Shown piece by piece: positions 1-64,000 of a DNA stretch of 64,000 bases. Below the pieces are notes generated by a model. The model saw only the letters and a list, made by a program, of their open reading frames with translations. It was not told the DNA's origin and made no database searches. Numbering within the stretch: the first letter of the stretch is position 1; every line of letters begins with the position of its first letter. The DNA comes from Tridacna crocea. Taxonomy: Eukaryota > Mollusca > Bivalvia > Cardiida > Cardiidae. Position numbers and translations under genes: made by a program. The stretch lies in the NCBI GenBank assembly GCA_943736015.1, contig OX031065.1, forward strand, positions 14,909,427 to 14,973,426, given 5' to 3'.

Positions 1-167
1 GCTCAATTTAACTAGGAAACTAGAATATAAGAATTGGTATTTTCACTGTTCACAACCATGAAATATCGAAAAATATTTCACCGATATTTCTCAATATCCT
101 ATGGGAAAGCATGAAATAAAAATCAAGTATACGACAAAAACTGAAACTTGTCTTTGGAAGGGAAGTA

Positions 168-250
168 TTATTTGTGGGAAAAGGAGAAAATGCGGGCTAC
201 AAGCATTTTCTCTGTTTGCCACATTGTTTCAAAAAGACTTATTTTGAAGG
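168..250. mobile_element. Degenerate core of the TTAA MITE
   Basis: GGGAAAAGGAGAAAATGC is followed by a decayed mirror half; the arms cannot be followed. Bases 1-125 next to it are an inverted fragment of the 450-bp repeat found at 4722 and 32960. A further left arm (CTTTACCAAACAATCACAAA) starts at about 330. Confidence 0.6.
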
Positions 251-457
251 AGTTTAAAACTTGTGTTTGTGAAAATAAGTCTATGAAAGCTTGAAAATAT
301 TTCAGTTAAAACTGATACTATCAATTTTAACCTTTACCAAACAATCACAAATTTCAACAATCCTATGGAAGAAGGTTTTTCAAAACATTCTGATCATTGT
401 TTTTATGATATTTGAGAAACCAGTCAATGATTTTGGTAGAATGTTATGCAAATAAAA

Positions 458-681
458 TCTTTTACCACACAATCATGAGTTTTAACGACCCCAAAGTAAA
501 AGCTTTTTGAAAACATTGTGAGATAAGGAGAAAATGCTGGTAACCAGCATTTTCTCCTTTTCCCACAATGTTTTCTACCCTATTAAAGACAGAAAACATC
601 ATCTGAGCTACTCTGAATTAGTCGTCTGCAAATGCCTTCAATTTGGACCAGTCTGAAATGTTGATGAGTGGTAAAGAGTTT
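458..681 (+). mobile_element. TTAA MITE, complete copy
   Basis: Complete member with CTTTACCACACAATC left end, palindromic core at 520-570 and TGGTAAAGAG right end. I use '+' for copies that start with the CAATCCC arm (core, then GTCGTCTGCAAATGC to the right) and '-' for the reverse. Confidence 0.85.
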
Positions 682-689
682 TGTATTAG

Positions 690-990
690 TGAAAGAAACT
701 CCAGGAGGGGATTTTTAATTGCCATTGTCAATAACAATATTTATCACAAAACCTCCCTTGTTTTCAGTGTAATATACCCATTACGAATTTTCTTATCTTA
801 CACACGTTTGATATCACATTTGTGTGACGTCATTTTTGACGTCATTTTGTACGCATTTCATACAAGTGAAGGGGTCTCATCTAAAATACCGCGGGTGCAT
901 TGATGAATGTTTTTGGATCATCTGATCTATATTTTGTGAAATATCATTATGTGATAAAAAGAATCTGACATTTGTGGGGGTTTGAGATAA
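690..990. other. No gene seen
   Basis: AT-rich spacer with GACGTCATTTTTGACGTCATTT (given here as a repeated GACGTCATTT) around 825-850, a short direct duplication. An 86-codon open frame here has no recognisable features. Confidence 0.5.
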
Positions 991-1082
991 GATTTTATTA
1001 AACTCGTCAAGGAAAATGTTATTAAGCTCGCCAAAGGCTCGCTTAATAACATTTCCCTAGACTCGTTTAATAAAACCTTTTC
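986..1082. repeat. Imperfect palindrome, TTTTATTAAAC arms
   Basis: TTTTATTAAACTCGTCAAGG faces CCTAGACTCGTTTAATAAAA, with AATGTTATTAAGC inside also mirrored. It looks like a small foldback element; no target duplication is clear. Confidence 0.7.
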
Positions 1083-1687
1083 TCAAAAGTCCACTCATGT
1101 CAGATCCTATATATCACTAAAATAAAGTTGAAAACAGCATGAAACACCACAAAAGCAAACAGGAAATTTTTGTACATTAATTCAAATTTATTATACACCT
1201 GAAAATCCTCTTGCTCAAATATATGATTTGCATGTGGGTAAATATCACATGTAACAGAAAGAAAAGTCTGTATACCTTATCTACACACAGTCAAATATGG
1301 TGCCAAATATGTTATGATAATGTAACAAAAATATGTACCTCATGGGCAAAATATGTATGTATTCATTTGCATTTTGATTGGTCAACTTTCCTGGTGCTAG
1401 TATTTATTGCTCACCAAGCAAGAAAATTTTGACATCTCGTTCAGCATTAGATGTCACTCCATATCACATTTTCTCATGCTGTTTGAATCAAATACAAGCT
1501 CCAGGTTAGCTACAACAACATAATAATATTCCATATGTGTCACAAATAATTTGAAATTAATAGTAAAGTGCATTGCATTTTGTGCATTGCGTATTGTGCA
1601 TTGAGTAATGTGCATACATGAATTGTCATGGAATAACTTAAATATCACAGGACAGCCTTGATGAGCCAAACGTAAAGATATATCTTA

Positions 1688-1871
1688 ATGAGCTATGCTA
1701 TGTTAAAAGGGGGCTTAATGCATCTACAAAATGCATCGACCCATGTCAGCCTGCGCAGTCCGCACAGGCTGACATGGGTCGAAGCTTTTTGCTTATTATT
1801 ATTAATTTTTTGCATGTCCAAGAAGATACAATTTATAAAGCTCCCTTTTGCCAAAGCATAGCTCAAACCTA
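1688..1871. mobile_element. Foldback MITE with GAGCTATGC ends
   Basis: The ends GAGCTATGCTATGTTAAAAG and its mirrored partner near 1850-1871 frame an inner hairpin, GACCCATGTCAGCCTGCGCA with its complement. The inner CAGCCTGCGCAGTCCGCACA motif recurs at 16448, 41130 and 41255. Confidence 0.7.
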
Positions 1872-1987
1872 TTCCTGATAGAAATTTTGATCATAATGAA
1901 AAAAAAATAAAAAAGAATCAGCTAAGATTTCTATTCTATCATTAGATCTAGATCTATTCTAATAAATATTCACATCCATTTTACATC

Positions 1988-2415
1988 TTAATCCTTTACT
2001 AAACAATCTAAGCTTTAACCCATTACTCCATAGATACTCATTTCTATGCATTGCTTGTTGGAGCCTTTGGAAAACATTGTGGCAAAAGGTGAAATTGTTC
2101 GTGACGAGCAATTTCACCTCTTGTCACAATGTTTTCTATGCTATCAAAAGGTGTCAAATACACATAAGAAACAGCTTTATCCTTGTTGTTACCAGGGTCA
2201 ATTAGAGATAGCATAGAAATGCCTTATGGGGTAAAGAGTTAACAAACCCGGGGAAAAAGGAAAATCATGGTGGAAAACGGAGAAAATGTTGGTAACCGTA
2301 ATCAGTCATTTCTCGTTCTCCAACCTATTTTATACCCTTTTAAAGGCAAATTTTGAGGCTAAATTATTTTGTTTTCTACAAATGCCCTGAATTTGTCATG
2401 TAGTATAGTATTAAA
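1988..2415 (+). mobile_element. TTAA MITE interrupted by another MITE
   Basis: An outer, old copy starts ATCCTTTACTAAACAATC and resumes after 2242 with AACAAACCCGGGGAAAAAGG and a decayed core (GGTAACCG). Bases 2015-2242 are an inserted second copy. Confidence 0.8.
2015..2242. mobile_element. TTAA MITE, GTGACGAGC-core subfamily
   Basis: TTAACCCATTACTCC ... GGGGTAAAGAGTTAA, 228 bp, inserted in an older copy. Its core is GGTGAAATTGTTCGTGACGA then GCAATTTCACC, so both stem arms differ from the main family yet still pair. Confidence 0.88.
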
Positions 2416-2641
2416 GATAAAAAATAGATCATTAATTGTTACACACATTGCACATTTGAACTCCAACTGAAATATTTTCAGGTACATTGCCGATTGTTTT
2501 TCCCCCTAAAAGTAAACAGTCCTAATCAATTTTTCTCACAAAATACAGGTATCACACTTTTCCTGAAAAAAGGGGGACACAGAATCTGCTTTTTTGTTGC
2601 TTTGAAACAAAATGCTATGTAGATAACATGACTGTTCTTAA

Positions 2642-2722: not shown

Positions 2723-5700
2723 CTGAAATATACATAAACAAACAGTTATTGTCAAATCATCTGTAATCACAATATATGGAAGTTCATAAACAAACAGACA
2801 ATTAAATGCAGGCATAGATAGAATAGGATTCATTCCCCGTTTCCCCCCCACACACACTTTTTTCAGTTTGCCGAGCCCCAGTAGCTCAGTCAGTAGCCTG
2901 CAGGGCTTGAGAGCATGAGGTACGGGTTCAATTCCTGGCCAGCCACTTTCTTTCAGGGGCTTGACATTTGTCAGTGTGACAGGATTCATTCCTTTCCTTC
3001 TGCTGACTATTGTTTCCACAATGATTATGTGGGAAAGCATCTTTGCAATCCACGGTTACGATCACTACGTAGATCTTACCTTGGTGGATCGAGCCTGATT
3101 TCAAGATTCCTGCGACACGCCCCCTATTGGATACTGCTTATTATCACCCTTTATATCATATTTCTTATAGCCAATGAAATGCCATTTTACAAACCGCTTA
3201 CGAATACAATAATTCAACATGAAGCAATAACCACAAACGTATTTCGACATTCCATGGTCAGGTGCTGGGATATAGCCTAAAACATCTGATAATTGATTGG
3301 TCACATTGAAACTTTATGTAAATATTGTTCGTATATGTTTTCTTCTGTAATAAATCATTACAGATCCTGCACACATCCACGAAGGTATTCATGTTTACCT
3401 TCTATTTTTATCACACCCTGTTCTATTTTTATCAAATATGAAATGCTATGAGCGATTTGATTTGATGCAGTTAGAGCTAGCTGCAACCAACGAAAATGCA
3501 TATTGGGTGATTGTTGAAATCAAGCTCAATCCGCCAAGGGTAGAGTAGCGTAGTGGATCATAACCCTTGGCTTGCAAAGATGGTGGGAAAGTAGCCAATG
3601 GCTTGGAACGAAAACTGTGTGGAGCACTGGTAAAAGAAACTCCTGGAAAGAATGGATAGGTGCACTGGCTGCTGCAATTAACCTGAAAAAATGTTGAAAT
3701 GGCATAAAACACCAACCAATCAATCAATGTTTGCAGTGTAATATACCCATCACAAAATTAATGTTCCTATCTTACACATGTTTGAGATAGGCAGTATTCT
3801 ACATCATACATGAAATGATTTTATACCTCTCTCAGAGAAATAAGTCAACATTTATTCTTGGAAATGTTCATGTATGCATGTTTTGTTTTGCATATTTCTG
3901 ACCTGTAAGTTATAAAATATTGTTATGTAACATACTATTTTGTTAGATAACTGATATAGACCTAAAAATTAATTGCTACCGTAATTCTATGCTTGCACAT
4001 ATGGAAAGCTGTGAGGATATTATGAGACGGAAAATAACATACCTTGGGTAGAAAAAACGGTATGGAACGATCTTTCACAAACGAGTAATCTCCAGGGTTA
4101 AAGGGACAATAAATGATCCTTTCTGGGTCTTCGTAGTCCTCATCAAGGGTACATAACTCCCACTCTTTACTATAAATAGCATTCCCATTGTATTTCACAT
4201 CTAAATAAAATTTGCCTCCTGTTAGTTCAGATTCTGAAAGGGAATAAAATGTGTCTGTCCAGACTTTAACATTTTGTCGGTTTACTTCAAAAACCTAGTA
4301 CCTATACAGCTTCATTCACCACAAAATCAAATTTCAACAATCCTGAAAAGGAGGGCTTATGAAACATTCTGGTGAAAGGAGAAAATGATGGTAACCAGAA
4401 TTTTCTCCTTTTCCAATGTTTTGTGACAAATATTTTCATTTGAAAAACATCTGAATTGTTGTCTGTAAACTCCTTGCGTTGGATGATTCTAAAATTTTGC
4501 AGTATGGTTAAGAGTCAACAAATTTTGGACTTGATCAAATTGAAAGAAATTGCAGATAAAGCATTAAATAAAGCCCCACTAATGATTTACTGGGTAGAAA
4601 GAAATGTGGAAAAAAAGGAAAAAATGCTGGTTACCATTTTTTTCCTTTTTCTTCTTTTTCCGAAATGTTTTCAAAACATCTCTCTCCTAGGGTCTTATCC
4701 TGCTAAATAATAACATTTTATTTCATGCTTTCCGGTAGGATATCGAGAAATAGCAGTGAAAATATTTTTCGATCTTACACTGGTACCACCTGTGAAAATA
4801 CTGATTTTCATGTTCTTTTTGCCCAGGTTAATTGCGTGTGCCTCACAACCAGATGGAAATATGATATCATTTACATTACATTTCTCGCACTGGACGTGAT
4901 ATTGTAATGCGTTGCTGCTATGTGGAAGGGGTACGCCACGGGGAATAACGGAAAAAAAACTACTGGATTTTGATAAAGCTCCTCTCAGAAAGGGTTAAAA
5001 GCATGAAATAAATAGAATATTTGGATTTTTCTGTGCAAGATCGAATTTCGTTTCATCTCCTGAACACCATCGGTAATATTTTCACTCATGGCTGCACTAC
5101 TCATGAAACTATTACCAATGGTGTCCACTCGATGAAATAAATTTCGATCTTTCACCAAAAAATACAAATATCCTCTATGAATTATTGTTGTGATACTAGT
5201 AGTATATACCTAAAAGCTGCTAATTGAAAGTTTAGTTTTGAGGAATAATACTACCTAACGGACAGTGTAGAACCAGGATCAGACTGCACATTCTGTGTAG
5301 TCTGATCTTGATCTACACCATTCGCAATAGGTCAGTGAGTCACCCTTAGCAACCTAAGGATTGAAAAAAGTAAGTTCATACTTTGGAGCGAGTAGAAAAA
5401 GAACAGAAGAAAGTATAACAAGAATAAATGGTTAAGTTCAGACTGACATGAATAAAAGATGTTTGCTTAGAGATGGATTTTAACTCATTACCAAACGACA
5501 ATATTTTAGGTTTGTCCAAATCAAAAGCATTTGCAGATGACAAAATAAAAGTGACTGAAAATTTGAAATTGTGTGAAGGGTAGAAAATATTGTTGGAAAA
5601 AGAGAAAATACTGGTTACCAGCATTTTCTCTTTTTCCCACAATGTTTTCTAAAGACTTCTTTCTCAGGGTCATCAAAAGTAGGGATTGTATGTTAATGGG

Positions 5701-8700
5701 TTTTAAAGAAGATATTTAGACTCTGAAAAGAAAAGAAATGTAACAGATCCTTTTGTGAATGAAAATGTTTATTCAGACTTCCACATAAATACGTAATGAC
5801 TAAGAGAAAAGTATGTATACAACAGGCACAAAGATAGCACTCTAACATGAATAAAAAATGTCAGTCTGGGGTCCGTATTCACCAACCATTCTTAAGAACA
5901 TTCTTTGTGTTGTTCTTCAACATGTTCTGTGAAAGTAACAGAATGTCTGATTGGCTAAACCAAATGGTTTAGCCAATCAGAAGTTCTGTTACTTTTACAT
6001 TGACAAAATTAGAATAAGACTACGAATGTTCTTAAGAATGTTTGGTGAATACGGACCCAGACCATGAAATGAATAAAAAGATGTTAGTCCACACTATGAT
6101 ATGAATAAAAGATGTCAGTCCAGTCCATGATATGAATAAAATATGCCATGTATGTCTTTGACACTAAAGATGAAAGTTCAGACTTCAATACAGTGAAAGA
6201 TGCTAGTTAAGACTTTGACATAAAAGATTCTAGGTAACAATTTGATATGCATAAAAGGTATTTTTCATATTTCACAACCCTATAGGAGTAGGTTTTTTTG
6301 AAACATTGTGGGAAAAATAGAAAATGTCAGTGACCTGCATGTTCTTTCTGAACTTGCTTTACTTGGCTCACAGACAGAAAAAAAGCCCTAAGAGAAGTTG
6401 GGCACCTTACCTAAAGTGGTGTTTATAAAGGTTCGAGATTTTACTCCTTTGAGACCTCCCCACCTTACTTCTGGCAACATAATGGTTCGGCCTACCATGA
6501 TTCTATCACCTTCCTCTGAAAGATACAAAGAGTTCACTATATCTTAACCCTTTCCCAAACAATAAATTTTGGACCCTTCCAAACCAAAAGGGTTTGCAGA
6601 CGACAATTTCAGATTTGGAGAAAATGGCAGAAAGTTCTCAAAAAGGGTAGAAAACATTGTGGGAAAAGTAAAAATTGCTCGTTACGAGCAATTTCTCCTT
6701 TTCCCAAAGTGTTTCCAAAAGACTTTAACTGCAGACACGTAAAAACCAGGGCTTGTTTGGGAAAGGGTTAAATCTCTACCAAACAATTTCATGTTGCTAT
6801 AACCCATAAAAAAAAAAAAACATTGTGGATAAAGGAGAAAATACTGATACCAGCATTTTCTCCTTTTTCGACCATATTTTGAAACCTTTAAAAAAGCAAA
6901 TCCCATAATTTAAGTGACATTACAAATGCCATCTGTAAACTCCTTACCAAATGACAAATTTTTGGTTTCGCCCAACCTGAAAGCATCTGCAAATGACAAA
7001 ATCAATGTAACCAAAGTGATGATTTCTGTCTTCTGTAGGGTAGAAAACTTTGTAGGAAAAGGAGAAAATGCTGGTTACCAGCATTTTCTCCTTTTCCTGC
7101 AGTGTTTTCAAAAGCTTTCTTCTTTAGGGTCATTAAAATGATTAAGAAATGGCCAAAATTTTGTTTTGTGGTAGAGTTAATTTGCATATATCCTACTACT
7201 AGATCACTATAGATGAGCGTTATAGGATACAAGAGTAATGCATGAGGTGAAAATTGTAATTTATAAAAGGGACATAACTGTTTCAAAGAAACTTTAAGAA
7301 TTACCAACCCTTTTTGATACCCAAACCCTCAGAGTCCTGAAATAACCTAATAGATATATTCACTCTTAAACTGAGGCTTAAATTATAAGTAGTTTCAGGG
7401 TTGCTCTTGTCCAAAATGTTTTAGCAAAGTGGAAGATCAGACTGCATGTTTTTGTGCAGTCTAATCTTGATGGCACTTTATCCCTATACCAAACAATCCC
7501 TGGTTTTTACGACCCTGAGATAGAAGCCATTTGAAAACATTGTGGGAAAAGGAAAAAATGCCTGTATTAATTTTCTCCTTTTTGAACAATATTTTCTACT
7601 CTGCTGAAAATAAATTTCAATTTTTGAGCTATGTTTATTATGTCGTCTGCAAGTTCTTTCAATTTGGACCAGTCTAAAATTTTGTCATTTGGTAAAGAGT
7701 TAAGGTTTAACACCTTGCCTGACAATGACACAAATATCTCCGGTAATGACACAGATGAGATAAATGTTGATGGTTTTGTATGACGATGATGATGATGATG
7801 CATCATGATGATGACAGAGATATAACCATACCTTAATGTATTATTCAAAATCAAGGGGGCTAAAATAAGTTAGCTCTTTACCAAACAACAAAGTTTTAGA
7901 CTGGTCCAAATTCAAAGCATTTGCAGACCACAAAATAAATGTGACTAAAGAATTGAAATGTGTTTTACGAAGGGAAGAAAACATTGTGGGAAAAGGAGAA
8001 AATGCTGGTTACCAGCATTTTCTCCTTTTCCTAAAATGTTTTCAAAAGGCTTCTTTCACAGGGGTATTATAAGTCGGGATTGTGTGGTAAAGGGTTAATA
8101 AATTGTGGAATGGTATTCAGTGTAGGGTCTTATCTAGCACAAGTACCACAGTTCGAATTAAAGAAATAAAAAAAAAAAAATCTTAGACGGCTGAATAAAA
8201 CCCAATAGTCATATTTGGTGTAGAAATAAGATCCAAAATAATCACAATTTTATGTTGCTTTTGTCTAGTGTGTTTCACCAGAGCGTTCAGTATAGATCAA
8301 AGATCAGATTGCACAGTTTGTGCGGCCTGATCTTGATCTATACTGGCCGTAAAGCTAACTATATTCAGTCTAGATTGTTTCAGCCAAGCGTACAATACAG
8401 ATAACAGATCTAGCTAAATGTTTTCTGCCGCCTGATCTTGATCTATTCTGGCTACAAAGACAACTAGAGTCAAAACAGGCGTCTTTAATAGGGGTTATTT
8501 CGAAAAAAGGCGAATAAATAACATACCACAATTATCATACACTTCACCAATCGGAACAAATTTGTTCTCGGCTATAAAGTTTTCCCAATATTGGAATGCT
8601 TTCTTCTCTTCTACATGAACATGTTTTTCTAAGTCATCCATATGCTCCTCTCTTTTAGCGGAGAAAAATCGTGCAGACTCTTTCTTGTAACGATTTGCTG

Positions 8701-8877: not shown

Positions 8878-9477
8878 GTTCACTACAAAACCCCTAACTT
8901 CAAGAACCCTTAGGAAAATATTCTTTTGAAAACACTGTGGGAAAAGGAGAAGATGCTGCTGATCAGCAATTTCACAATTTCTCCTTTTTCCTCAATGTTT
9001 GCTGCTCTTTTTTATACAAATCCCATCGTAAGAATCACATTTGTCACAAACAGTTAAAATGATATGTATTATCCAAATCTACCAGTGCAACAAATGAACT
9101 TGATTCTCCCGTACTTAGAACCATACACTTGTACTTTCATCCCAAGAGAATGCACTACAAACATTAAACAATTATACATTGTACTACATATACAAGTGTA
9201 ACACTGAAAAGATTAGAGAGTTATAGATTAGATTATGATATTTATTGTCTTTACTGTACAAGAAAATTTCAGATACTTCCACATTGACAAGATGTTTTGA
9301 TGACAAAGAAAACGTAACTCATTAGATGGAATTTGTCTTGGATAGGGGTGAAAACAATTTGTATGAAAAACTGAAAATGCTCACAACCAGTGTTTTTTTC
9401 TTCTTTTTCTCACAGTGTTTCCATACACCCTCTGTTCCCAGGTTGTTAAAACGTGGGTTTGTTTCGTAAAGGGTTAA
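8878..9477. mobile_element. Two decayed MITE copies upstream of the GM2A-like gene
   Basis: A core fragment lies at 8935-8995 (GCTGATCAGC) and a longer decayed copy at 9246-9477 ending GTAAAGGGTTAA. They occupy the region just 5' of the GM2A-like start codon, so the promoter is either compressed or further upstream. Confidence 0.6.
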
Positions 9478-9745: not shown

Positions 9746-9973
9746 TTAACCCATTACAGTACAATCCCTACTTTTGACCCCCTCAGAAAAAAGCCTTTAG
9801 AAAATATTGTGGGAAAAGGAGAAAATGCTGGTAACCAGCATTTTGTCCTTTTCCCTCAATGTTTTCTATCATTCACAAAACAAATTTCAAATTTTCGGTC
9901 ACTTTTATTTTGTTGTCTGCAAATTCTTTTGATTTGGTCAAGGCTAAAATATTGTTGTTGGGTAATGAGTTAA
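9746..9973 (+). mobile_element. TTAA MITE, complete copy
   Basis: TTAACCCATTACAGTACAAT to GGTAATGAGTTAA, core GCTGGTAACCAGC. It is separated from the previous copy by only 20 bases. Confidence 0.88.
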
Positions 9974-11984: not shown

Positions 11985-12340
11985 TTAACTCTTTCCCGAA
12001 CAATCACTGGTTTTTATGATGCTGGGAAAGGCGGCTTTTGAAAATACAGAAAATACTGTAGGAAAAGGAGAAAATGCTGGTAACCAGCATTTTCTCCTTT
12101 TCCCATAGTGTTTTCTACCCCTTCATAACCAAAAATCATCACTGGCATTACATTTGATTTGTCGTATACAAACGCTTTGAATTTGATCTAGTCCAAAATT
12201 TTTTTGTTTGGGAAGGAGCTAAAAAAGGACAGCAAACACTGCAGGAAAAGAGAAAATGCTGGTACAATCATTTTCTCATTTTCCCTTGAACTTTTTAGAG
12301 GTGCTCAAACTCTGGATTATTTGGTAAAGTATGTAATCTC
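11985..12340 (+). mobile_element. TTAA MITE plus a deleted copy
   Basis: A full copy (11985-12222; GCTGGTAACCAGC core) is followed directly by an internally deleted copy (12230-12340) that keeps part of the core and the right end. Confidence 0.8.
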
Positions 12341-17073: not shown

Positions 17074-17301
17074 TTAATCCATTACCACACAATCCCTACT
17101 TTTGACAACCCTGAGAAAGAAGCCTCGAGAAAACATTTTGGGAAAAGGAGAAAAAGCTGATAACCAGCATTTTCTCCTTTTCCCACATTGATTTCTATCT
17201 TTCACAAATCAAATTTGAAATTCTCAGTCACTTTTATTTTGTCGTCTGCAAATGCTTTCAATTTGGACAAATCTAGAATTTTATAGTTTGGTAATGAGTT
17301 A
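17074..17301 (+). mobile_element. TTAA MITE, complete copy
   Basis: TTAATCCATTACCACACAAT to TTTGGTAATGAGTTA, core GCTGATAACCAGC. Confidence 0.87.
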
Positions 17302-47600: not shown

Positions 47601-50600
47601 CCATCTCCATGACTCGAGATATCAAGCAGTTATGGATCTCTAGAGTCCACTCTGTCTAGCAACTGACTGAATCATGATGTAGAATAGTCCTTTGATATGT
47701 AAATTGTCTAATAGCAAAGAAATTTTGACCCAGGTCAGGTTATGTAAAGAGCCCAGGCTGACATGGGTTGATACTTTTTGCAGATGCGTTAACTCTTTAC
47801 CACACAATCCCTACTTTTGATGACCGTGAGAAAGAAGCCTTTAGAAAACATTGTGGGAAAAAGAGAAAATGCTGGTAACCAGCATTTTCTCCTTTTCCCA
47901 CTATGTTTTCTACCCTTAACATAACAAATTTTCAGTCACTTTTATTTTGTTGTCTGCAAATGCTTTCAGTTTGGATAAGGACAAAATTCTGTCATCTGGG
48001 AAAGGCTTAAATGCTTCTTTTGAAAATGTCATTATAAGGTTGCTATATCTGCATGGCCAGTGCACCTATCCATGCTCTTCTGGAGTTTCTTTTGCCAGTA
48101 CTTCTTATAATATTCCTCCCAAGCCACAGATTCCTTTTCTACGTAACATTGTCTAAACAAAAATCAGATGAAAATGTCACCTCCCAAAGTAAGTGGGAGG
48201 GAATTGACAAAGAAAACAGACTTTTTTAATTTTGGCTCAGCTGTGTTATCCATGTTATTGATGGCTGAAGTTTGCAACTACACTAATAAACAGTAGAAAA
48301 TTCATCCCACGTTTGCAGCAATAGCCTGCTATGCCTTTTCATAGAAGCCTTTTGAAAACATTGTGGGAAAAGGAGAAAATGCTGGTAACCAGCATTTTCT
48401 CCTTTTCCCACAATGTTTTCTACCATGCTGGAAACAAATTTCAATTTTTGGGTTACATTTATTTTGTCGTCTGCAAATTCCGTCAATTTGGACTGGTCCA
48501 AAATTTTGTCATTAGCGAAAGGGTTAACCCTTCACTCTTTACCACACGAGAAAATTTTGGATAGGTCTAAATTCAGAGCAGATCTGCAGACGACAACGTA
48601 AGTGTGACTGAAAAATTGAAATTTTGTTTTGGAAGGGTAGAAAACATTGTGGGAAAAAGGAGAAAATGCTGGTTATCAGAATTTTCTCCTTTTCTCACAA
48701 TGTTTTCAGAAGGCTTCTTTCTCAGGGTTGTGAAAACCAGGCATTGTTTGGTAAAGGGTAACATCCTTGAAACCGACTAAGGTTGTTTTTGCAGACAGTG
48801 CAGGTCAAGATCAGACTGCAGAGAACTTGCATTCTGATCTTTGATCTGCACTGTCTGCTACTATGTTACATACTTTTAAAAGAAACAGCATTGATGTAGC
48901 AACATTTTGGGCTTCTTTTCCTAATTAAAAAGGTCCAAATCAGTAATTCAGCGCTTTCAGTGTTCAGTTATTTTGTAGTAAAATGGAAATAAAACCCAAA
49001 AATGCACAGGACTTAACTCTTTACTAAACAACAAAATTTTGGACTACTGCAAATTGAAAGCATTTGCAGACAACTAAATAAATGTGAATCAAAAATTGAT
49101 TTTTGATTTTGGGAGGGTAGAAAAACATTGTGGGAAAAGGAGAAAATGCTGGTTACCAGCCTTTATTCCTTTTCCCACAATGTTTTCAAAAGGCTTCTAT
49201 CTTAATGTCATTAAAATTCAGGATTGTGTGGTAAAGTTAATTAAGAAAGCAATGGAACCTTGTGTTTACATACCCGGTACTGATGATTGGATATCAGTTC
49301 TTTACCCAACGAAAAAATTTTAGGACCATCAAAATTGAAAGTATTTGCAGATGAATCATAGAATAGATCCAAAATGATGAAGTTCATCTTTGAAATGGTA
49401 GAAAATACAGATACCAGCATTTTCTTACTTATTCCAATTTATCAAAACCTTTCTTTTTCCATTACAATCATTAAAATTCAGATGCCTGGTGTCTGTGGCT
49501 GTGAGATAGTGTCTGCCTCGTAACCATAAGGTCCAGAGTTTGATACCATGGAGCATGTGGCAACCTAAGGATTTTTTTCATTGGCGCACACATTTGGCAC
49601 TGCTAGTACTGGTGTAGTTCCCAGGAAGCAGATGCGAGAGAAATTATCAAAGTTGTAAACTTGTTTCTCAATCAATGTAAAATAAATATATGTAAACTGA
49701 TTAAAATTCAGGATTGTGTAGGAAAAGGCTAACCCTTTGCCAAAAGGTACCAAGCTTTCAAGAGCAAAAGGTAGAAAACCCCTTGAAAACACAGCATGTT
49801 CTCCTTTTCCCATGTTGATTTTTACTCTTTCACAAACAAATCTCTTAGGTGATAAGTTTTCTTTCAAGAAATGAGAAAGCTTGTCTTATGACAATTTGGT
49901 AGAATACTATTCAGATTTGATTGGCTGACAAACTAACCTTTCTGATTGGCTGATATATCTCACCCATTGATAAAACTTGCTTCGTAAAATGTTGATGGAT
50001 AGAATTCTCTTCAGAATGGATTGAGAAGGATGCGGTTATAACTCATTATGAAACAACAATATTTTAGGTTTGTCCAAATCAAAAGCATTTGCAGACGACC
50101 AAGTAAAGGTAACTGAAAATTTGAATTCGTTTTGTGGAGGGTAGAAAACATTGTCGGAAAATGAGAAAATGCTGGTTACCAAAGGGCTTATTTCAAAGGC
50201 TTGTTAAAAGTTATGTTTGTGTTGTTAAGGGTTAAATATTATAAAATGACTGAAGGTCCCAGTTTAGGTGATAAAGTTTTGCTCAGCTAATGAGAAAGCC
50301 TGTTGTATGACAATTTGGTAAAATACTATTTAGATCTGACTGTGGTTGATAAACCTGCCTTTCTGATTGGCTGATACAGGGTGTCCGGAAAGTAAGGTAA
50401 CACTTTCGTACATTTATATTTTGGCTTAAGATAACGAGATGAAAAATATATCTACTTATACATAAAACGTGTAAGTTTTTTTGAGTGATAATTTAATTCA
50501 ATTTTCTTAACATTTTGTGTTTTTATACAGATTTCAATTCAAAAGTCCTTTTTCTGTCACTGGCGTCATTTTACAATTAATGACATTTTCAGTGAGACGG

Positions 50601-53600
50601 CAGATTATGCTCTTTCCATGCCGATCATGCCCAATGATATTGTGAATCACTTGAGTACACATTTCAATATCAATCTTCTTTATTTCACTGTTAGTGGTCT
50701 TTAACAATATGGCTGTGCTGTTTTGGTTGAGGCTGTCAACCTTTGACCTTTTAAACTAACAGAAAGAAGTCCCATATGTTGAAATCAGAATAAATTCGCC
50801 CTCACTCCTCATTGGAAAGGAATTGGTTCATGCAGGAAAGTGCTAAGCCACACACATCTAAATCTGTGAGAGACTTTTTATATAATAGGGTAATAGGTGA
50901 TATTGGGTAATGTCTAAACGATATCCGGAAGTAAGACATGGTTGAATATCGTGGCCTGCACACAGTCCAAAACTCAACCTTCAGCTTCCTCCTTTGCAGT
51001 GTGTTGAAGTCAAAGGTCTACAATCCCAACCTAAACAACCCAGACCTGTCGTTAAAAGAAATCCTTCTAGTGAAATCAGTATGATTGATGTTTGAATGCA
51101 TTTCAAAGTAAGTGAAAATTTCATTGTGCGTGTTTGGAAAGGAAAGAGTGTAAAAGGCAATCACATTGAAAACGTCATTAATTACTAAAAGGACTTTTGA
51201 AGTGAAACCTGTGTAAAAGCGGAAAGTGTTATGAAAATTCAATTAAATTATCAAACAAAAAAAATTACACATTTTATTTACATGTATATACTAGTATATT
51301 TTTCATCTTGTTATCTTATATTTTAAGCCAAAATATAAAAGTACGAAAGTGTTACCTTACTTTCCGGACACCCTGTATATCTGGTCTCACGAAATGATAA
51401 AACTTGCTATGTAAAACATTAAATTTTCATTAGAATGGATTTAGAAGGATTTGGTTATAACTCATTACTAAACAACAATATTTTAATCTTGTCCAAATCA
51501 AAAAGCATTTGTAGACGACCAAATAAATGTGACTGAAAATTTTAAATTTGTTTAGTGAAGGATAGAAACATTGTGGGAAAAGGAGAAAATGCTGGTTACC
51601 AGCATTTTCTCCTTTGCCCATAATGTTTTCTAGAGGCTTCTTTCTCAGAGTCTTCAAAAGTAGGGATTGTGTAGTAAAGGGATAATTGTTGTGAAGAGAT
51701 TTCAATTTTGTTTGTTATTCTTAATATGTGAAAAGGACAAACAAAGGAGGGAAAGAAATCAGATTAACTCTTTCCTTACTGTATATGACAAAAGAAGCTT
51801 TTGTAGACAGTGTAGATCAGAGATCAGACTGCACAGAATGTGCAGTCTGATCTCTGATCTACACTTTCTATTACTTTATCTTAGAATAAGTTCAAACTGT
51901 CTTTTCACTTCTCAGTGGAACTATATAATATAGCCAATAGAAATGTCTAGATCGTTTACTAAGTAGTGAAAGAGTTTGGAAAATTGAGGCTTCAAACAGA
52001 CTTACGGCATCAGGTTTTACAACAAAAACACTAATATATTATGATAAAACAAGGACTCTGAAAAGCAATAGTGAAATAAATATTCTAAGCAGCATATTTG
52101 ACAACAAGAGCTTCGCAAAGCGGCGCATATAGGCCCGAAGGGGCTTGTCAGTGAAATGAGTTGAAATGACGGAAGGGCCATGAATGAAGAGTAGTTAATC
52201 TCCATATGTGAAAAATATTAAAGGGCAATAACTAAAAAAAGAAAGGGTGGCACAGTTACAAATTTTGTAAATTGCTGTTCTCCACAAGGTGTTCTATCAG
52301 TTTTGAAGGGTTCAAGATCATAGCTTTTTAATTTAGAAATTATGGCCCAGACGAAAATTCAAAGAGAAAACTAACAAAGGGCAATAACTAAAAAAAGAAG
52401 GATGGCAGAGTTATGGTTCTTCTGCAGTGCACTTCTTTATAATGTGTTCTGTAAGTCTTTGAAGTTTCAAGATGATAGGTTTTAAAGTTTGGGAGTTATT
52501 GCCTGGACAAAAATTCAAACTAACAAAGGGCAATAACTAAAAAAATAAAAGTCGCAGAGTTATGGTTCATGTGCAGTGCACTTCACCATAATGTGTTCTA
52601 TCGGTGTATGAAGTTGCAAGTTATTAGCTTTTATAGTTTGGAAGTTATGGCCTGGACAAAAATTCAAACTGAAAATTAACAAAGGGCAATAAGTAAACAA
52701 ATAAAGGTGGCAGAGTTATGGTTCATGTGCAATGCACTTCTCCATAAAGTGTTATATTACTATATGAGGTTGCAAGTTATTAGCTTTTATAGTTTGGAAG
52801 TTATGGCCTGGACAAAAATTCAGACTGAAAATTAACAAAGGGCAATAAGTAAAAAAATAAAGGTGGCAGAGTTATGGTTCATGTGCAATGCACTTCTCCA
52901 CAATGTTATCTATCAGTGTATGAAGTTCAAAGTTAATAGCTTTTATAGTTTAGAAGTTATGGCCTGGACAAAAATTCAAACTGAAAATTAACAAAGGGCT
53001 GTAACTCAAAAAATAAAAGTGGCAGAGTTATGGTTCTTGTGCACTGCACTTCTCCATAATGTGTTCTATCAGTGTATGTAGTTTCAATTTAATACCTTTT
53101 ATGGTATGAAAGTTATGGCCTGAACAAAAATTCAAAGTGAAAAGTTGGTTATTTCAGAAATCAAGGGCAGATAATTTTGGAACGGAAACAGCGATCAAAA
53201 TTCTATGACCCTGGTGCACAACTAGACATGATGGAGATTCATTGTGGCAAGTTTCAAATAATTCCGATGAAAACTGTAGGAGGAGTTGCGCACACAAGAA
53301 ATTGCTAACGGACGGATGGACGGCTGGACAGACGGACGGACGGACGACCGGGGGTATAACATAATACGACCCTTCGGGCGTATAAAAAAGAAACAAAGGC
53401 AACCCTTGTTATTTACTCTCTATTGAAACTTCTGAAAACTAAGTAAATAAAAAAATGCAAAATAAATGCAAAAATATAACAACAAGAAATTTCATTGAAA
53501 TGATATCCCCACACCTGACCCCAGTTGGCCATTTTTCATTGAATCAAAAAATAAAACAACTGGATCGGCGGAATGGGTTATTGTACATATATATTAAGTT

Positions 53601-56600
53601 TCATGAAATTCCATTCACTAGTATTGAAGATATTCTCCCAGATGGACACAAGGACAGATGGACAGACAGACAAAGCTGAAACTATATCTCTCCACCTTTG
53701 GCAGGAGATAAAAACAAACTTTTTAACACCTTATCAAACAATAGTGAGTTTTAAAAACACTTGGAAACATTGAGCAGAAAATGCTGATTACCAGCAAAGA
53801 CAATATCCACCATTAGATCAGGTTTTACTTGCAGTCTGCAAATCAATTTGATTTCGAAAGGTCCAAAGTGTTGTCATTTGTTAAAGAGTTCAAGGGTAGA
53901 AAAGACTGTGGAAAATGGGGATAACCAACATCCTTCCATTTGAAAAATCTATACCAAATGACAACATTTTAGACCTTTCCATAAACACAGCATTGAAGAT
54001 GACTAATGAACCTTTCACCAAACAATCCCTGATTTTACGACCCTGAGATAGAAGCCTTTTGAAAAAATTGTGGAAAAAAAAAAGGAAAAAATGCAGGTAA
54101 CCAGCATTTTCTCCTTTTCCCACAATGTTTTTCTACCCTGTTGGAAACAAATTTCAATTTCTGATTTATATTTAATTTGTAATCTGCAAGTGCTTCACAT
54201 AATGACCTAAATCTTTGACTCATCTACGACATAAAACATTGACTAAGGGACAATAAGTTGTTTAACTCATTACCAAATGAGAATATTTTAGGCTTGTCCT
54301 AATTGAAAGCATTTGCAGACAACAAAATAAAAGTGACTGAAAATTTGAAAGTTGTCTTCTGAAGGGTAGAAAACATTGTAGGAAAAGGAGAAAATGCTGG
54401 TTACCAGCATTTTCTCCTTTCCCACAATGTTTTCAAAAGATTTTTTTCTCAGGGTCGTCAAAAGTAGGGATTGTATGGTACTGGGTTAAAATTCCAGGTT
54501 TTCAAGTAAGTTATCCTTCTATCATATCCTTTATAGATAATTCAGCAAGTATCTTAAACCAAACACGAAATATTCATCAATGGTGATGCAACATCACACT
54601 TTACAGTTTGTTACATTCTGGTCCTGATCTACTCTGTCCCTAAAAGTTAGGACTCAGTGATAAAGTGCTTGACTCATAACCCAGAAGGCCCTAGGCTCAA
54701 GCCTCAGTAGAAGTACTGGATTTTTCATGACAATGTACTGGTAATTAGGCAATACATCTCAGGGCCCTTGCCTTATACTAGTGAAAACCAGGACATAGTT
54801 ACATGAATAGGTGAGCTGTTGCTGTGATCTGACTGAAAAAATGTTGAAAGCAGACTAAAAAATATTATTATATCAATCAACCAACCAACCTTCAAAAAGT
54901 TGTGATAGGTATGTAAGGTTTAAAATACTCTGATTTCCAAAAACTTTCCATAAATCTATTCTAAAATTATTAAATCAATGTTTGTACATAGTAACATGTA
55001 ATACATATGTAGGAAAGATAAAGGAACCAGCCACTAACTGACCTGTGAGAGACTGGAGACCAGCTCCAACTGTAGACAAAAAGGAACCAATCAGAATCAC
55101 CCATCTTGTTGGCCATGCCAGTAGGGCAACCACTAAAGCTCCATCTATGCTTTCCCCTAGTCTATAGCAAATGAAAATTGATATCAAACCATATTCTATT
55201 TCAATTTCACAATGATAAACCAACATCTAACAATTTTGTTTTACTGTAAGACCTCTAGGCTTATAATGTCAAATGATAAAATTTGCCTTTGAAAACAGAG
55301 CAAACAATTTTGGAAAAGGAAAAAAATGTTGGTTATCAGCATTCCCTCCTTTACTCATAAGGTTTTCATAAGCCACAAGGTTTAAACTAAAACATGGTTT
55401 TCCTGAAAGGTTTTACAAGGCCTCTGACTTGATCATTAAAACTTGGATTATGTGCTAGAGGCTTAAACAGCTTTACCAAAATTTTTAGACTTGTCAAAAC
55501 TGAAACCATTTTCAGACGACAAAATAAATATAAGACTCAAAAATTGAAACTTGACTTTGGAAGAGAAAACATTGTGGGAAAAAGAGAAAATGCTGGTGAC
55601 AAGCATTTTCTCCTTTTCCCACAATGCTTTCAGAGGGCTTCTTTCCTATGGTCATTAAAATCAGGGACTGTTTGGCAAAGCCTTAAAAACTCCACAAGAA
55701 AAATATATTACACAAGTTATACTTTCCCTGACTTATATTGTTCTACAATTTTGTTGTCTGTTACATATTTAACCCATATTTAACCCATTACCAAATGACA
55801 ATATTTTAGACTGGTCCCAATTGAAAGCATTTGCAGACAACAAAATAAAAAGAGACTGAAGATTTGAAATTTGTTTTGTGAAGGGTAGAAAACATTGTGG
55901 GAAAAAGAGAAAATGCTGGTTACCAGCATTTTCTCCTTTTCCCACAATGTTTTCTAAAGGCTTCTTTCTCGAGGGTGTCAAAAGTAGGGATTGTGTGGTA
56001 ATGGGTTAAAGGATTTAATGCAGTTGAATAAAACAGTAACTTACTTGTCTCTTAGTAGATCACCTTCTATTGTTCCAGCAAAGAAGAAAGTACAAGTCAC
56101 ATCTAGTTGTATGTAAAGGAATAACTAGAAGCAGTAAAATGACAGTTTCTGTAAGTTCAATAGTTCCACTGCCAATGACATTAATTTTACCCTTTACCAT
56201 ACAAACCTGGGTTTTCATGTGAAGACTTTAAGAAATGAGGTCTTTGAAAACATTGTAGGAAGGAGAAAATACTGATAATTAGCATTTTCTCCTTTTCCTA
56301 AAATGTTTAAAAAGCCATATTCTTGATTATCAGCATTTTCTCCTTTTCCAACAATATTTTCAAAAACCTCCCTCTTCAAAGTCATGAAAATTTGGGACTG
56401 TGTGGTATAGGGTTACAGTGTATTTTTTGTTTTTGTTTTTTCCATTCTCAACATCATTTCAATCAAATCACAGCAACAGCTCTCTGAACTCTTTACTAAA
56501 CGAGAAGATTTTAGACTGATATTAGAAAGTACTTGCAGATGATAAAATAATAAACATTACTCAAAAGTTGAAATTTGTTTCCACCACTGTAGAAAACATT

Positions 56601-59600
56601 GTAGGAAAGGAGAAAATGCTGGGTACCAGCATTTTCTCCTTTTCCCACTTTTTTTTAAAAAGGCTTCTATCTTAGGGTCGTAAAACCCAGGGATTGTTTG
56701 GTAAAGAAGTCATTCATATGTGTCCTAGTTTTCATCGGTGCTAGGCTAGGACTCTGTTGTGCCTTGCCAAAGGACCTTCCAAAGAAAAGCCCAGCAACTT
56801 AACTCTTTACAAAACAACAAAATTTTAGACTTGTCCAAATTGAAAGCATTTGCAGATGACTAAATAAGTATGACTCATAAATTGAAACTTGACTTTAGAA
56901 GAGTAGAAAATATTGCAGGAAATGGATGGACAAAATGCTGGTTACCAGCGTTTTCTCCTTTTCCCACAATGTTTTCAGAAGGCTTCTTCCTTTGGTGTCG
57001 TAAAAAAACAGAGATTGTTTGGTAAAGGGTTAAGAGACAATCAAACCAAGGACGTTTAGTTTGTTGATTGCATACATCTTCATCTCTGGTCCACATGTGG
57101 ACCCAAAACAAAGTAAGGATACAGACTAGACTCGTGGTGGTAATGGCTGACAAAGTTCCGATAGGAATGGATTTCTGCGCATCTTCAAGGTCACCTGATC
57201 TGTTGGAGCCCGCCATTATACCTGTAAAAACTAGAGCTATCATTAAACATGATTATACCCCCCACCAGCTCCTTGTCACAAAAACAGGTCTTTGTCACAG
57301 AATGCAGAATGGTTTAGTACAAAAGCAAGAGTTGAAAAAGTTCAAGGGGAGATAAATCCTTGACATAGTAATGAAACTTGCACATGCACAACTTCATTAT
57401 AGGAACCCTGTGTGTAAGTTCGAGTTAAGAACGTGAAAAACTGTAGGAGTATTACTCAGTACAAATTTGTGTTAACGGATAGACAGGCTGATGGACAGAC
57501 AGCCATGGCAATTCCATTATACCCCTCTCCACTATTTCGTGGGGGGTATGATAAATATTTTCCATCTATACAAACACATAAATCTTATATTTTGAGCATC
57601 ATTTGCATAGCATTTTTCGTGGTTAAAATATGAGTTTTTTTAATTAGCTTAAAAAGAAATAGGCCCTGCTGGTTGCATGCCAAAAAATGCCATCTGCCAC
57701 AGTAAAATTTACATAAACATCTTTATTTAGTACAAAGTATTTTCAGTATCCTGTTAATGATGAACAAGCTCATAAAAATCTTTTTACTGGCTCCAACTGG
57801 CCTATCATTAACCCTTCACCACACAAAAACAAACTTTTAACAACCCTGAAGGCTTTTGTAAACATTGTGTTAAAAGGAGAAAATCCTAGTAACCAGCATT
57901 TTCTCCCTTTCCTACAATATTTTACACTCTCTCAAAGACAAAGTTCATCTTTCAATCCACGTTTCTTTTGTTGTCTGCAAAGCTTCCAATTTTGAGCTCT
58001 CAAACACTTTGTCATTTAGTAAAGGGTTCAAAATGGCTGACTTAGACTGAAAGAATCTTTTCTAATAATAATTGTATCCCTGCTTGTTTGGAAGATTTTT
58101 TTACTCTTTACCCAAACATCAAAATTCTAGACTTGTCCAAACTAAAAGCTTTTGCAGATGACATATCAAATGTGACTCAAATGATGAAATTTGTCTGTGA
58201 CAGGGTAGAAAACATTGTGGGAAAAGTAGAAAATGCTGGTAACCAGCATTTTCTCCTTTTCCCACAATGCTTTCAAATGTTTTCTGCTTCAATGTCATTA
58301 AAAGTTGGGAGTGTGTGGTAAAGAATTGACAAGAACTTTGCAAAGTGGCACATAATATGCCCAAAGGGGCTTGTCAGGAAAATGGCTCACAATCTAGAAT
58401 GCCTGCAGATATCCAAATCTTACAAGTCACATGCACACTTACAACTCATAAAGATTTATTTTGGTAAGTTTGAACTTATTCCAATGAAAACTGTTGGAGG
58501 AGTTACACACACAAGAAACTGCTAATGAATGGATGGACAAATGACAGGAGCCATAACATTATAGGACCCTTCAGGTGTATATAAAGAAAAAGTCTAAAAA
58601 TTTTTATCCTCTATGCAAATATCTGAATGCCCCTTTTAGCATGTTACAAGCCATATGATCTAAATGGTGAAATTTGCTTTGAAAGGGTACAAAACTTTGT
58701 AGAGACAAGTAGAAAGTGCTGGTTATCAGCATTTTCTCCTTTACCCCCACAATGTTTCAGAGGCCTTGTACATGAGGGCTGTTAACTGTCAGCATTTTAT
58801 GATAAAAGGTTAAATTCAAAGTCAACATTACCTGTGACAGAAGGAAAATAAATAGCCAGTAACACTACAAAGGAAGACGTGATGTCAGCCACTATCTCTC
58901 CATGCTTTCTGTTTCCCTCTGTTTTTGTACCAATGATGTCCCCTGTCATGGTATACTGATTTGCAATATTTTCTGTAGGAGAAAATTAAAAACTTGGATA
59001 GTTCTTCAGTTGAGCATCAAATTTTTAGGTAAAATTAACATGATATAAAGCACTATGAAGAAAAATTATTATCTCTTTGATGAACATCAAAATTTTAGAA
59101 TTGTCCTTTTGCAGATAGCAATTCAGATGTAGTTATCCCATTACCACACAATCCCTACTTTTGATGACCCTGAGAAAGAAGCCTTGAGAAAACATTGTGG
59201 TAAAAGGAGAAAATGCTGGTAACCAGCATTTTCTCCTTTTACCACAATGTTTTCTACCCTACCTAAAACAAATTTTAATTTTTGAGTCATGTTTCATTTG
59301 TTGGCTGCAAATGCTTTCAATTTGGACAAGTCTAAAATTTGTCATTTAATGTGACTCATTTTTGACATTGTCTGGGATATCCTCAAGACATACCTTTTTA
59401 CCATCTATCGTGTATTGGATTGGAAATGTTTTCTCTGGTCCTAATGGCCTACTTTTTAAACTGAACATGATCCAAGTTTCAAGTTTATCCCAGATACTAT
59501 CAAGACAAACATTGTGGTCAACTTTCATGGGTGTTGAACAGAAATTCTAGCCTCTTAGTACATATGATTTTTCTCAAAATGTCCTTGTGAGATACATTTT

Positions 59601-61360: not shown

Positions 61361-61364
61361 AAAA

Positions 61365-61508: not shown

Positions 61509-61610
61509 TGAGACCACTCAGGTGTTATGATAATAATCGATTCAAAGCTCTTCCACAGATTCAGCAAATTCACAGCAATTTCAACTTTTCACATCTTTTT
61601 TCCCAAAAAC

Positions 61611-61991: not shown

Positions 61992-62027
61992 TTTTTTTTT
62001 TTTTCAAAACATTCCACTGCCAATGAA

Positions 62028-62160
62028 TTAACCACTACCAAATAATCACTTCTAATGACTCCGAGGAAGAAGTCTTTTCAAAACATAGTTTGAAAAGGAA
62101 AAAATGCTGGTAACCAGCATTTTTCTCCTTTTCCCACAATGTATTATTTTCATGAAATCC
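62028..62160 (+). mobile_element. MITE, right arm lost
   Basis: TTAACCACTACCAAATAATC and core GCTGGTAACCAGC, cut after CACAATGTATTA. Confidence 0.75.
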
Positions 62161-62277
62161 ATATGGGAACAATGCCACCAAAGAAATTAGTTATTTTCCC
62201 ATTTCAGAAACCAAGGGCAGATAACACTAGCAAGTCTAAGGAGATCTAACTGTAAAGAGTCACTTGCCCAACTACTA

Positions 62278-62862
62278 CTCTTTTAAAGACCACTTTTGTC
62301 ATTTGAGACACCTTTAATTTGCCCTCTGCAAAATTAACCCATTACTACATAATCCCTACTTTTGACGCACCTGAGAAAGAAGCCTTTATAAAACATTGTG
62401 GGAAAAGGAGAAATGCTGGTTACCAGCATTTTCTCCTTTTCCCACAATGTTTTCTACCCTTCACAAAATAAATTTCAAATTTTCAGTCACTTTTCTTTTG
62501 TCGTGTGCAAATGGTTTCGATTTGGAAAAACCGAAATGACATGTCCAAAAATATTGTTGTTATACAGTAAAGAGCTAAGCCTTTCCTAAATGACAAATTT
62601 AGCCAACTCCAGATTGAATGCATCTGCCGACGACATATTTGAGATTAGTGCCAATGAACTGAAACCGTCTGATTTGATAGAAAACCTTGTGTAAAATAGG
62701 AAATAAAATGCCTGTTACAAGCAATTTCTCCTTTTTACACAATGTTTTGTTCTCTATCACAGACACGAGACTCTGGCTCTTTGAAACTGACTGAAAATTT
62801 GTCATCTGCTGGTCCTTTGAATTCAAAGTAGTCCTAGCATCTATCATTTGGGAAAGAATTAC
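62278..62862. mobile_element. MITE cluster
   Basis: An arm remnant (62278-62333) is followed by a full '+' copy at TTAA (62334-62578, core GCTGGTTACCAGC) and a decayed '-' copy (62572-62862, core GCCTGTTACAAGC). Confidence 0.78.
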
Positions 62863-62908
62863 TATTGAAAAATTGTCTTAAAATTACCACTGTCTCTCAA
62901 ACTTCCCT

Positions 62909-63132
62909 TTAAATCTTTACCACACAATTATGACTTTTGATGACCCTGAGGTAAAAGCCTTTTGAAAACATTGTGGGAAAAGGAGAAAATGCTGGTAACC
63001 AGCATTTTCTCCTTTTCCCACAATGTTTTCTACCCTTCCCTAATCAATTTGCGATTCATTAGTTGCATTTATTTTGTCTTCTACATATGCTTTCAATTTG
63101 GACCAGTCTCTAAATTTGTTGTTTGAGGTTAA
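62909..63132 (+). mobile_element. TTAA MITE
   Basis: AATCTTTACCACACAATTAT to TTGTTTGAGGTTAA, perfect core. Confidence 0.87.
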
Positions 63133-63357
63133 AAGAGGTAGGAATGATACATTAAATACTGTATTTTCTCTATTTAACACCCCTGATGGCAGGAAAGGGG
63201 CAAAATGGTAACAAGTTCAATTCCTTTCAGGAAAAAAAGCCAGGGTATGCAATTATTGAGGGATACATCTAACAATTTTTTATATTTTTTTTGCATTTTT
63301 GCATTACTTATGGTAGTCAGTCTTTCAGGCTAGTTTTCTCATCAAAGCAGTTGACTG

Positions 63358-63549
63358 TCATGGTCTAAAAGGCCCCCATTGCAAAGGCATAAAAAATACC
63401 AGTAAGTGCACAAGGTAAATTGTAACAGTGACAAACTGAGGACAAATGCTGCATTTGTTATTAATAAGGAAAACCATTTCTCTCAGATCTATCACTGTCC
63501 GACAGAAACTCTCTATTAGAAAGAGGTAATAATGATGTATGACAGACAT
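63358..63549 (-). other. Second copy of the unidentified 61611-type repeat
   Basis: Open 63-codon stretch with IESFCRTVIDLRE and INNKCSICPQFV, aligned with 61611-61991 over about 55 residues and at the DNA level (CCGACAGAAACT..AGAGGTAATAATGAT). Confidence 0.35.
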
Positions 63550-63565
63550 GTACTCTTCTTCCTGT

Positions 63566-63794
63566 TTAAATCTTTACTCAACGACAATTTTTAGGACTGG
63601 ACCAAATTCAAAACATCTGCAGACAACAAATTAAATCCTGTTAATATGGTGATTTCTGAGTTTGATAGGGTAGAAAACATTGTGGGAAAAGAAGAAAATG
63701 CTGGTTACCAGCATTTTCTCCTTTTCCCACAATCTTTTCTACAGGCTTCTTTCTCAGGGCGTATAAAAGTTGGGATTGTGTGGTAAAGAGTTAA
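63566..63794 (-). mobile_element. TTAA MITE, complete copy
   Basis: TTAAATCTTTACTCAACGAC to GTGGTAAAGAGTTAA, perfect core. Confidence 0.88.
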
Positions 63795-64000
63795 ATCTTG
63801 CAGATTTTTTTTTTTAAAAAGTCATTTTTTAAGTAGAAAAAAGGCTGGGAAATCAGCAGTTAAAGTGCAGCATTTTATACAGAATTCCTTGTATTACCCA
63901 GACAGTCTTTCAGACAAATTAATTTGATCAATAGAGCAATTTCTAAACTCGTCACAATTGAAAAGATAAAATCTACTAGAACTGGAAGGTACATATACAA

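Follow-up and report, generated by a model that had tools for sequence, protein, structure and literature searches.

The closest described system is CMITE, a family of miniature inverted-repeat transposable elements (MITEs) of the corals Acropora millepora and A. palmata, reported with TTAA duplications and CCCTTT-type termini in genomes that also hold piggyBac-like transposons (PMC2872659). Between families its internal region is described as better conserved than its terminal repeats, some copies adjoin one another, and the terminal motif of piggyBac elements is given as CC[C/T]T (PMC2872659). For the giant clam Tridacna crocea, one genome paper tabulates 2,578,864 DNA elements whose superfamily is unknown, 34.9% of the genome (PMC10858879), and the published annotations disagree: rolling-circle and DNA elements stand at 22.48% and 14.19% in one (PMC11700175) and at 1.03% and 37.68% in the other (PMC10858879). 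Here we describe a TTAA-flanked MITE family with a central palindrome in a 64,000-bp stretch of T. crocea DNA, hereafter the window (assembly GCA_943736015.1, contig OX031065.1, C10 among the assembly's contigs, positions 14,909,427-14,973,426). The hairpin-cored family is real. We read it, at a probability of roughly 0.78, as a piggyBac-type TTAA element that would be mobilized in trans, with the palindrome as a cis-acting part kept in source copies.

By description, not by sequence, the clam family resembles CMITE in its TTAA duplications, its CCCTTT-type termini, the presence of piggyBac-like transposons in the genome, its adjoining copies and its stronger internal than terminal conservation (divergence 0.094 vs. 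0.141). CMITE is smaller and rarer: it is about 100 bp long, its core spans 75 bases, and A. millepora has about 1,600 copies, as against 229 bp, a 67-bp palindrome and some 1.6-2.1 million copies and fragments here, and the available text of the coral paper mentions no palindrome or hairpin (PMC2872659). No description of this MITE family was found in the open-licence literature; relative to the coral precedent, what is new is its scale, its hairpin and the way the center of the hairpin flips.

The element in the window and in the genome

The consensus element measures 229 bp from TTAA to TTAA, with a short arm of 51, a palindrome of 67 and a long arm of 103, and carries the terminal inverted repeat TTAACYCTTTACC at both ends; the termini are written as the pair TTAACYCTTTACCAAAC and as CYCTTTACCAAAC. 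End-to-end spacings peak at 228-229 bp (23 of 63 pairs), as for a short and homogeneous element that is non-coding by length alone. With up to two mismatches, TTAACYCTTTACC has 127 matches in the window against 5.3 expected from shuffled sequence, where the highest of 100 shuffles gave 13. An iterated profile hidden Markov model (HMM) returned 239 raw matches covering 24,084 of the 64,000 bases (37.6%), a count inflated because the palindrome matches both strands; once overlapping opposite-strand matches were removed, 126 remained (70 plus, 56 minus), covering 36.1%. The reversed, uncomplemented window gave none. Forty-seven of the 126 reach from model positions 1-3 to 222-225; the model takes in the left TTAA only from its second T and ends before the right TTAA is complete, and the elements extend 1-3 bases past the match. 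The commonest left ends are CCCTTTACC (22), CCCATTACC (13) and CTCTTTACC (12), and the commonest right ends CTCTTTACC (29) and CCCTTTACC (16). Neither a tRNA nor an Rfam RNA was found in the window. These results bear out a sequence-only reading of the same stretch, which had proposed one TTAA-flanked palindromic family of about 110-120 copies or fragments filling roughly a third of it, with unequal arms of about 60 and 110 bases around a palindrome of about 66.

That reading had also presented the window as saturated. The density is real, but it is not specific to the window, since exact copies of the 13-base end TTAACYCTTTACC stand at the genome mean: 17 in the window (266/Mb) and 279,935 (139,851 + 140,084; 267/Mb) in the 1,048,827,098 bases of the 31 contigs (77 Mb, C1, to 40 Mb, C18, among the 14 examined). 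A regional assembly artifact, which had been named as one way in which the observation might fail, was rejected on the same figures. The reversed pattern occurs only 157 times genome-wide (88 + 69). Both exact ends lie 218-238 bp apart at 22,559 places, compared with 0 for the control, and the exact 69-mer palindrome with center A occurs three times in the window, with two expected from the genome counts for A and T together.

Fragment density was 1.97/kb in the window and 1.57/kb in 39.6 kb flanking other copies, a non-random sample drawn entirely from the first 1.3 Mb of C1; scaled to the genome, these densities put the family at an estimated 1.6-2.1 million copies and fragments. It covers 36.1% of the window, 27.3% of the 39.6 kb of flanks and 22.4% of 17.6 kb around transposase loci, and so seems to occupy between a quarter and a third of the genome. 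Both the share and the number are close to those published for T. crocea DNA transposons of unknown superfamily, a comparison by share and number alone because the published table gives no sequence or structure and refers to another assembly, of 1.30 Gb (PMC10858879). That class is probably, in large part, this MITE family.

Insertion at TTAA and the candidate mobilizer

Conservation ends with the TTAA itself: over 96 full-length copies its four columns score 0.88-0.96 at either end, and the adjoining outer base drops to 0.40 (left) and 0.49 (right). Of the termini examined, 94 of 109 on the left and 84 of 92 on the right carry an exact TTAA. Duplication of the target, for which flanks alone had spoken, is shown by an empty-site comparison: a MITE at 845-1067 of locus L031 lies inside a young piggyBac element, related to the CCCTTTATATAC transposon described below, with flanks GATTGGC-TTAA...TTAA-ACCAACC, and eight of nine sister piggyBac copies carry a single TTAA at that site, the ninth (L023) having no match to the exact pattern used. 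A second insertion, in L033, has TTAA on both sides and corresponds to uninterrupted sequence in seven sister copies (BLAST). L031 and L033, which have flanks in common, match at 98.5-98.7% identity, and L033 lacks the L031 insertion, so that, judged by this identity, the family has moved recently. A wider flank-joining search gave an uninterrupted relative for 16 of 64 queries among the matches listed, most of the inspected alignments being to other MITE copies in the flank, and only the L033 case was retained from it.

The element's own termini were also considered as preferred targets; with 80 left and 80 right ends compared, a TTAA junction was shared in six cases, where a naive estimate gives about 18, and there is no sign of preference. 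At 43672-43942 a 135-bp piece of the MITE is duplicated in tandem (2.0 copies, 99% matches), a recent local duplication and not a transposition.

The genome holds 118 piggyBac transposase matches, and several of its piggyBac elements have been recently mobile. Thirty of these loci were fetched; both termini could be read in 12, and 18 were left unread. The 12 fall into families with termini CCCTTTATATAC (seven loci), CCCTAGTCATGC (three), CCCTTTCAGTGC (one) and CCCATTTATGCC (one). The CCCTTTATATAC transposon measures about 2,765 bp. Its seven complete copies among these loci (L014-L019, L023) lie in differing surroundings and are 98-99.9% identical, with an open frame of 624 aa in L014-L017. 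Like the MITE, the piggyBac transposons of this genome (L011, L014-L019, L020, L021, L022, L023, L032) have TTAA ends, CCCTTT or CCCATT starts and recent mobility; unlike it, they are coding and 2.6-2.9 kb long, and their terminal repeats differ past the first 6-7 bases. No similarity to the MITE arms or palindrome was seen at these loci except in MITE copies inserted in or adjoining them. From the exact TTAA target and the CYCTTT-type termini we infer a mobilizer of piggyBac type acting in trans, the actual partner not being among the loci read.

A second piggyBac-type transposase is represented by L025-L029, L034 and L037, with an open frame of 492 aa in L025-L029. In those five the repeated unit fills the whole 4.1-kb locus at 99.5-99.98% identity, its ends are not reached, and ordinary MITE copies lie beside the gene. 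Within this unit, at about 1095-1165 of L027, stands an imperfect palindrome, GAAAACCATGG...CCATGTTTTC, which by eye resembles that of the MITE and is not among the profile matches.

The central palindrome and the weighing of explanations

The 67-mer is a perfect palindrome save for its single center base, and as a single strand it is predicted to fold back on itself as a complete hairpin (-37.2 kcal/mol, z -14.5). Its better preservation, which had been noticed from the letters alone, holds up outside CpG positions: divergence from the consensus in 150 copies is 0.094 for the palindrome, 0.141 for the terminal repeats and 0.219 for the arms, and the consensus base falls below 0.7 in none of 67 palindrome columns and in 30 of 130 arm columns. 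In 96 copies 49 complementary double changes were counted, compared with a permuted mean of 11.4 and a maximum of 22 in 1,000 permutations, and two-sided changes number 52 at the true pairs as against 20-30 at pairs slid by 1-3. Part of the double-change excess is due to subfamilies such as a four-copy cluster whose arms are very different and whose palindrome is near-perfect, with compensated changes 3, 8, 13 and 20 from the center. On a tree of the arms only (192 rows) the compensated columns cluster, for example 15 minor states in 7 changes and 13 in 6, which points to changes in source copies. The ratio of palindrome to arm difference is 0.77 in 19 close pairs (arm difference <0.1) and 0.39 in 611 distant pairs; on this comparison we read the constraint as acting on source elements, not on resident copies. 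Since subfamilies with diverged arms keep a near-perfect palindrome that changes in complementary pairs, we regard a cis-acting role in the mobile unit as the most likely one for the palindrome, which would have been retained in the source copies that founded each subfamily. Why the hairpin is retained is the least certain part of this account.

The center base behaves differently from the rest. It was counted in palindromes perfect at all other bases and followed by TACCC (72-mers); these TACCC-ending patterns replaced earlier ones because copies of the form TAGAAAAC...GTTTTCTA match both strands. Genome-wide the center is A in 15,130 cases, T in 1,303, G in 345 and C in 139, so that about 8% of otherwise perfect palindromes have an inverted center. 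The next base has changed from A to T in 96, and the center flip is thus 13.6 times commoner. Such an excess is the expected trace of inversion, because reversing the palindrome alters only its center, from A to T. A lineage of T-centered copies as their common source is unsupported: on the arms-only tree 28 scattered T copies need 24 changes, and the nearest neighbor is also T for none of 22, with 3.2 expected. With rising palindrome divergence the T fraction runs 6/35, 4/51, 4/28, 2/37, 9/31 and 3/8; flips thus already occur in the least diverged group, and without a steady rise they are not simply a build-up over time. The center is inverted recurrently and the palindrome is unstable. Template switching across the hairpin during replication fits as the cause, exchange between oppositely oriented copies being an alternative.

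The same process might be asked to explain more, namely that mutation itself keeps the palindrome, template switching copying one arm onto the other and so producing both the complementary doubles and the center flips. Arm homogenization and spacer inversion are reported as the two marks of template switching (PMC8604942), which can also maintain stems (PMC8794818), and the 13.6-fold excess of flips would answer to the second of these marks; private complementary doubles are likewise somewhat more frequent in T-centered copies (6 of 24 vs. 12 of 123; Fisher p 0.08, weak). Arm homogenization at the palindrome, however, is not clearly seen. At the pair 2 from the center, 15 doubles compare with 10.8 expected from 404 singles, a figure in which the left side was counted and the right taken as equal, and which covers only center-A copies although a switch would flip the center too. 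Private doubles (25) stand within the permuted range (mean 15.5, maximum 28 of 300), with no clear excess; A copies (0.823) and T copies (0.815) hardly differ in mean mismatches per substitution; and repair of this kind homogenizes arms without itself lowering divergence from the consensus. We consider upkeep by mutation rather unlikely. It is less likely still that the palindrome only seems better kept because it has no CpG, aligns more easily and aids the finding of copies. Arm CpG columns are indeed among the worst kept, and the difference is small in the closest pairs. Yet the contrast between palindrome and arms persists with CpG columns removed, as does that between columns, and the complementary doubles are more numerous at true than at slid pairs.

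As for the mobilizer, Kolobok elements also duplicate TTAA, and some of the MITE termini depart from the piggyBac motif, which would suit a superfamily of that sort; the CCCTTT and CCCATT forms nevertheless resemble the genome's own recent piggyBacs and the termini of coral CMITE and piggyBac elements (PMC2872659). No Kolobok search was made, and on the termini we hold another TTAA-targeting superfamily to be improbable. The 22.48% given to rolling-circle elements in Table 2 of one annotation of T. crocea (PMC11700175) might suggest that the MITE is Helitron-like, set against which the other annotation has only 1.03% for that class and 34.9% for DNA transposons of unknown superfamily (PMC10858879). 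The clam MITE ends in inverted repeats and duplicates its TTAA target. Rolling-circle elements are not known to do either, and we give a rolling-circle origin almost no credence.

Several observations count against reading the family as a trans-mobilized piggyBac-type element with a palindrome under constraint. Among 112 near-full matches TTAA stands at both ends in 64, at one end in 33 and at neither in 15, and the sister sites of the L033 insertion read TTTA, not TTAA. The MITE ends are often CTCTTT or CCCATT, off the piggyBac motif CC[C/T]T (PMC2872659). No transposon with the MITE termini CYC[T/A]TTACC, and so no autonomous relative with a DDE_Tnp_1_7 transposase, was found among the 12 loci with both ends read, 88 further matches being unfetched. 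The piggyBac-like mobilizer proposed from the sequence is supported by the TTAA targeting, the CYCTTT-type termini and the recent piggyBacs with CCCTTT or CCCATT, but a transposase bounded by the same CYCTTTACC terminus was not found in this sample. Coverage is lower in both samples outside the window, and the ratio of 0.77 in the closest pairs leaves constraint on single resident copies unsupported.

In the mechanism that we favor, a piggyBac-type transposase would mobilize the MITE in trans to TTAA targets, and source copies with an intact palindrome would found each subfamily, the palindrome outlasting the diverging arms. It may serve for binding of the transposase or a host factor, or through hairpin formation at replication; separately, template switching over the hairpin would invert the center base. 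More tentatively, and with somewhat less than even confidence, we suggest that this hairpin-cored piggyBac-type MITE makes up the bulk of the third of a giant-clam genome assigned to no superfamily, possibly among the largest shares of an animal genome taken by a single MITE family, and that its palindrome acts in cis as an amplification module, outliving arms and terminal details and doubling as a natural inversion assay. If true, this would supply a structure and a likely class of mobilizer for the largest unclassified part of giant-clam genomes, and many thousands of near-identical 67-bp palindromes would allow inversion and template switching to be measured in an animal germline. It would extend the coral finding of a MITE core more constrained than its termini, the core here being a hairpin.

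Features of the window

Table 1. Copies of the MITE family in the window, with their palindrome variants (window coordinates).
Position	Strand	Feature	Method
1..64000	both	MITE family, 126 matches, 47 near-full-length	profile HMM
457..679	+	near-full-length copy	
2016..2239	+	divergent-arm subfamily copy; palindrome with four compensated double changes	
5483..5702	-	near-full-length copy	
6547..6770	-	near-full-length copy; two compensated pairs, 3 and 8 from center	
7480..7700	+	near-full-length copy	
7874..8097	-	near-full-length copy	
9249..9476	-	near-full-length copy, center T	
9747..9970	+	near-full-length copy	
11986..12218	+	near-full-length copy	
17075..17299	+	near-full-length copy	
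19479..19609	+	partial copy; four compensated pairs identical to those of 2016-2239	
21312..21535	+	near-full-length copy	
21652..21875	-	near-full-length copy	
23639..23861	-	near-full-length copy; two compensated pairs, 3 and 8 from center	
24762..24985	+	near-full-length copy, center T	
27572..27796	+	near-full-length copy, center T	
28587..28810	+	near-full-length copy	
30190..30394	+	near-full-length copy	
32277..32500	+	near-full-length copy	
34082..34305	+	near-full-length copy; perfect palindrome 34136-34202	
35059..35280	-	near-full-length copy	
35572..35796	-	near-full-length copy	
36758..36982	+	near-full-length copy	
37099..37321	+	near-full-length copy	
39527..39737	-	near-full-length copy	
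39738..39958	+	near-full-length copy; TTAA junction common with 39527-39737	
40214..40432	-	near-full-length copy, center T	
41649..41873	+	near-full-length copy, center T	
42132..42351	+	near-full-length copy	
43239..43423	+	both model ends spanned, internally shortened copy	
46197..46381	+	both model ends spanned, internally shortened copy	
46386..46554	-	both model ends spanned, internally shortened copy	
47110..47368	-	near-full-length copy	
47371..47574	-	near-full-length copy; TTAA-type junction common with 47110-47368	
47790..48005	+	near-full-length copy	
48354..48420	+	perfect 67-bp palindrome in partial copy	
48534..48759	-	near-full-length copy	
50041..50234	-	copy with both model ends	
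51460..51683	-	near-full-length copy	
53724..53889	+	both model ends spanned, internally shortened copy	
54265..54488	-	near-full-length copy	
55471..55685	-	near-full-length copy	
55783..56008	-	near-full-length copy	
56802..57032	-	near-full-length copy	
57809..58027	+	near-full-length copy	
58103..58327	-	near-full-length copy, center T	
62335..62574	+	near-full-length copy, center T	
62576..62857	+	both model ends spanned, exceeds model in size, center T	
62964..63030	+	perfect 67-bp palindrome in copy 62910-63126	
63571..63793	-	near-full-length copy	

Apart from the MITE, one open stretch (56875-57252, minus strand) contains a piece of an amino-acid permease (PF00324, E 6.9e-7) and continues into MITE sequence; no Pfam match was found for the six other open stretches tested in the window. 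Hairpin-like sequences at about 1700-1790 and 5265-5325, of the types CCCATGTCAGCCTGCGCAGTCCGCACAGGCTGACATGGG and GATCAGACTGCACA...TGTGTAGTCTGATC, apparently belong to other repeat families. At about 2878-2945 a tRNA-like stretch, CCCAGTAGCTCAGTCAGTAG...GGTTCAATTCCTGG, has the look of the head of a short interspersed nuclear element, and ARAGORN calls no tRNA there. Tandem arrays with a period of 156 occupy 17988-18931, 34410-34819 and 52209-53143; the first and third have motifs such as GGGCAATAACTAAAAAA in common and may be one satellite family.

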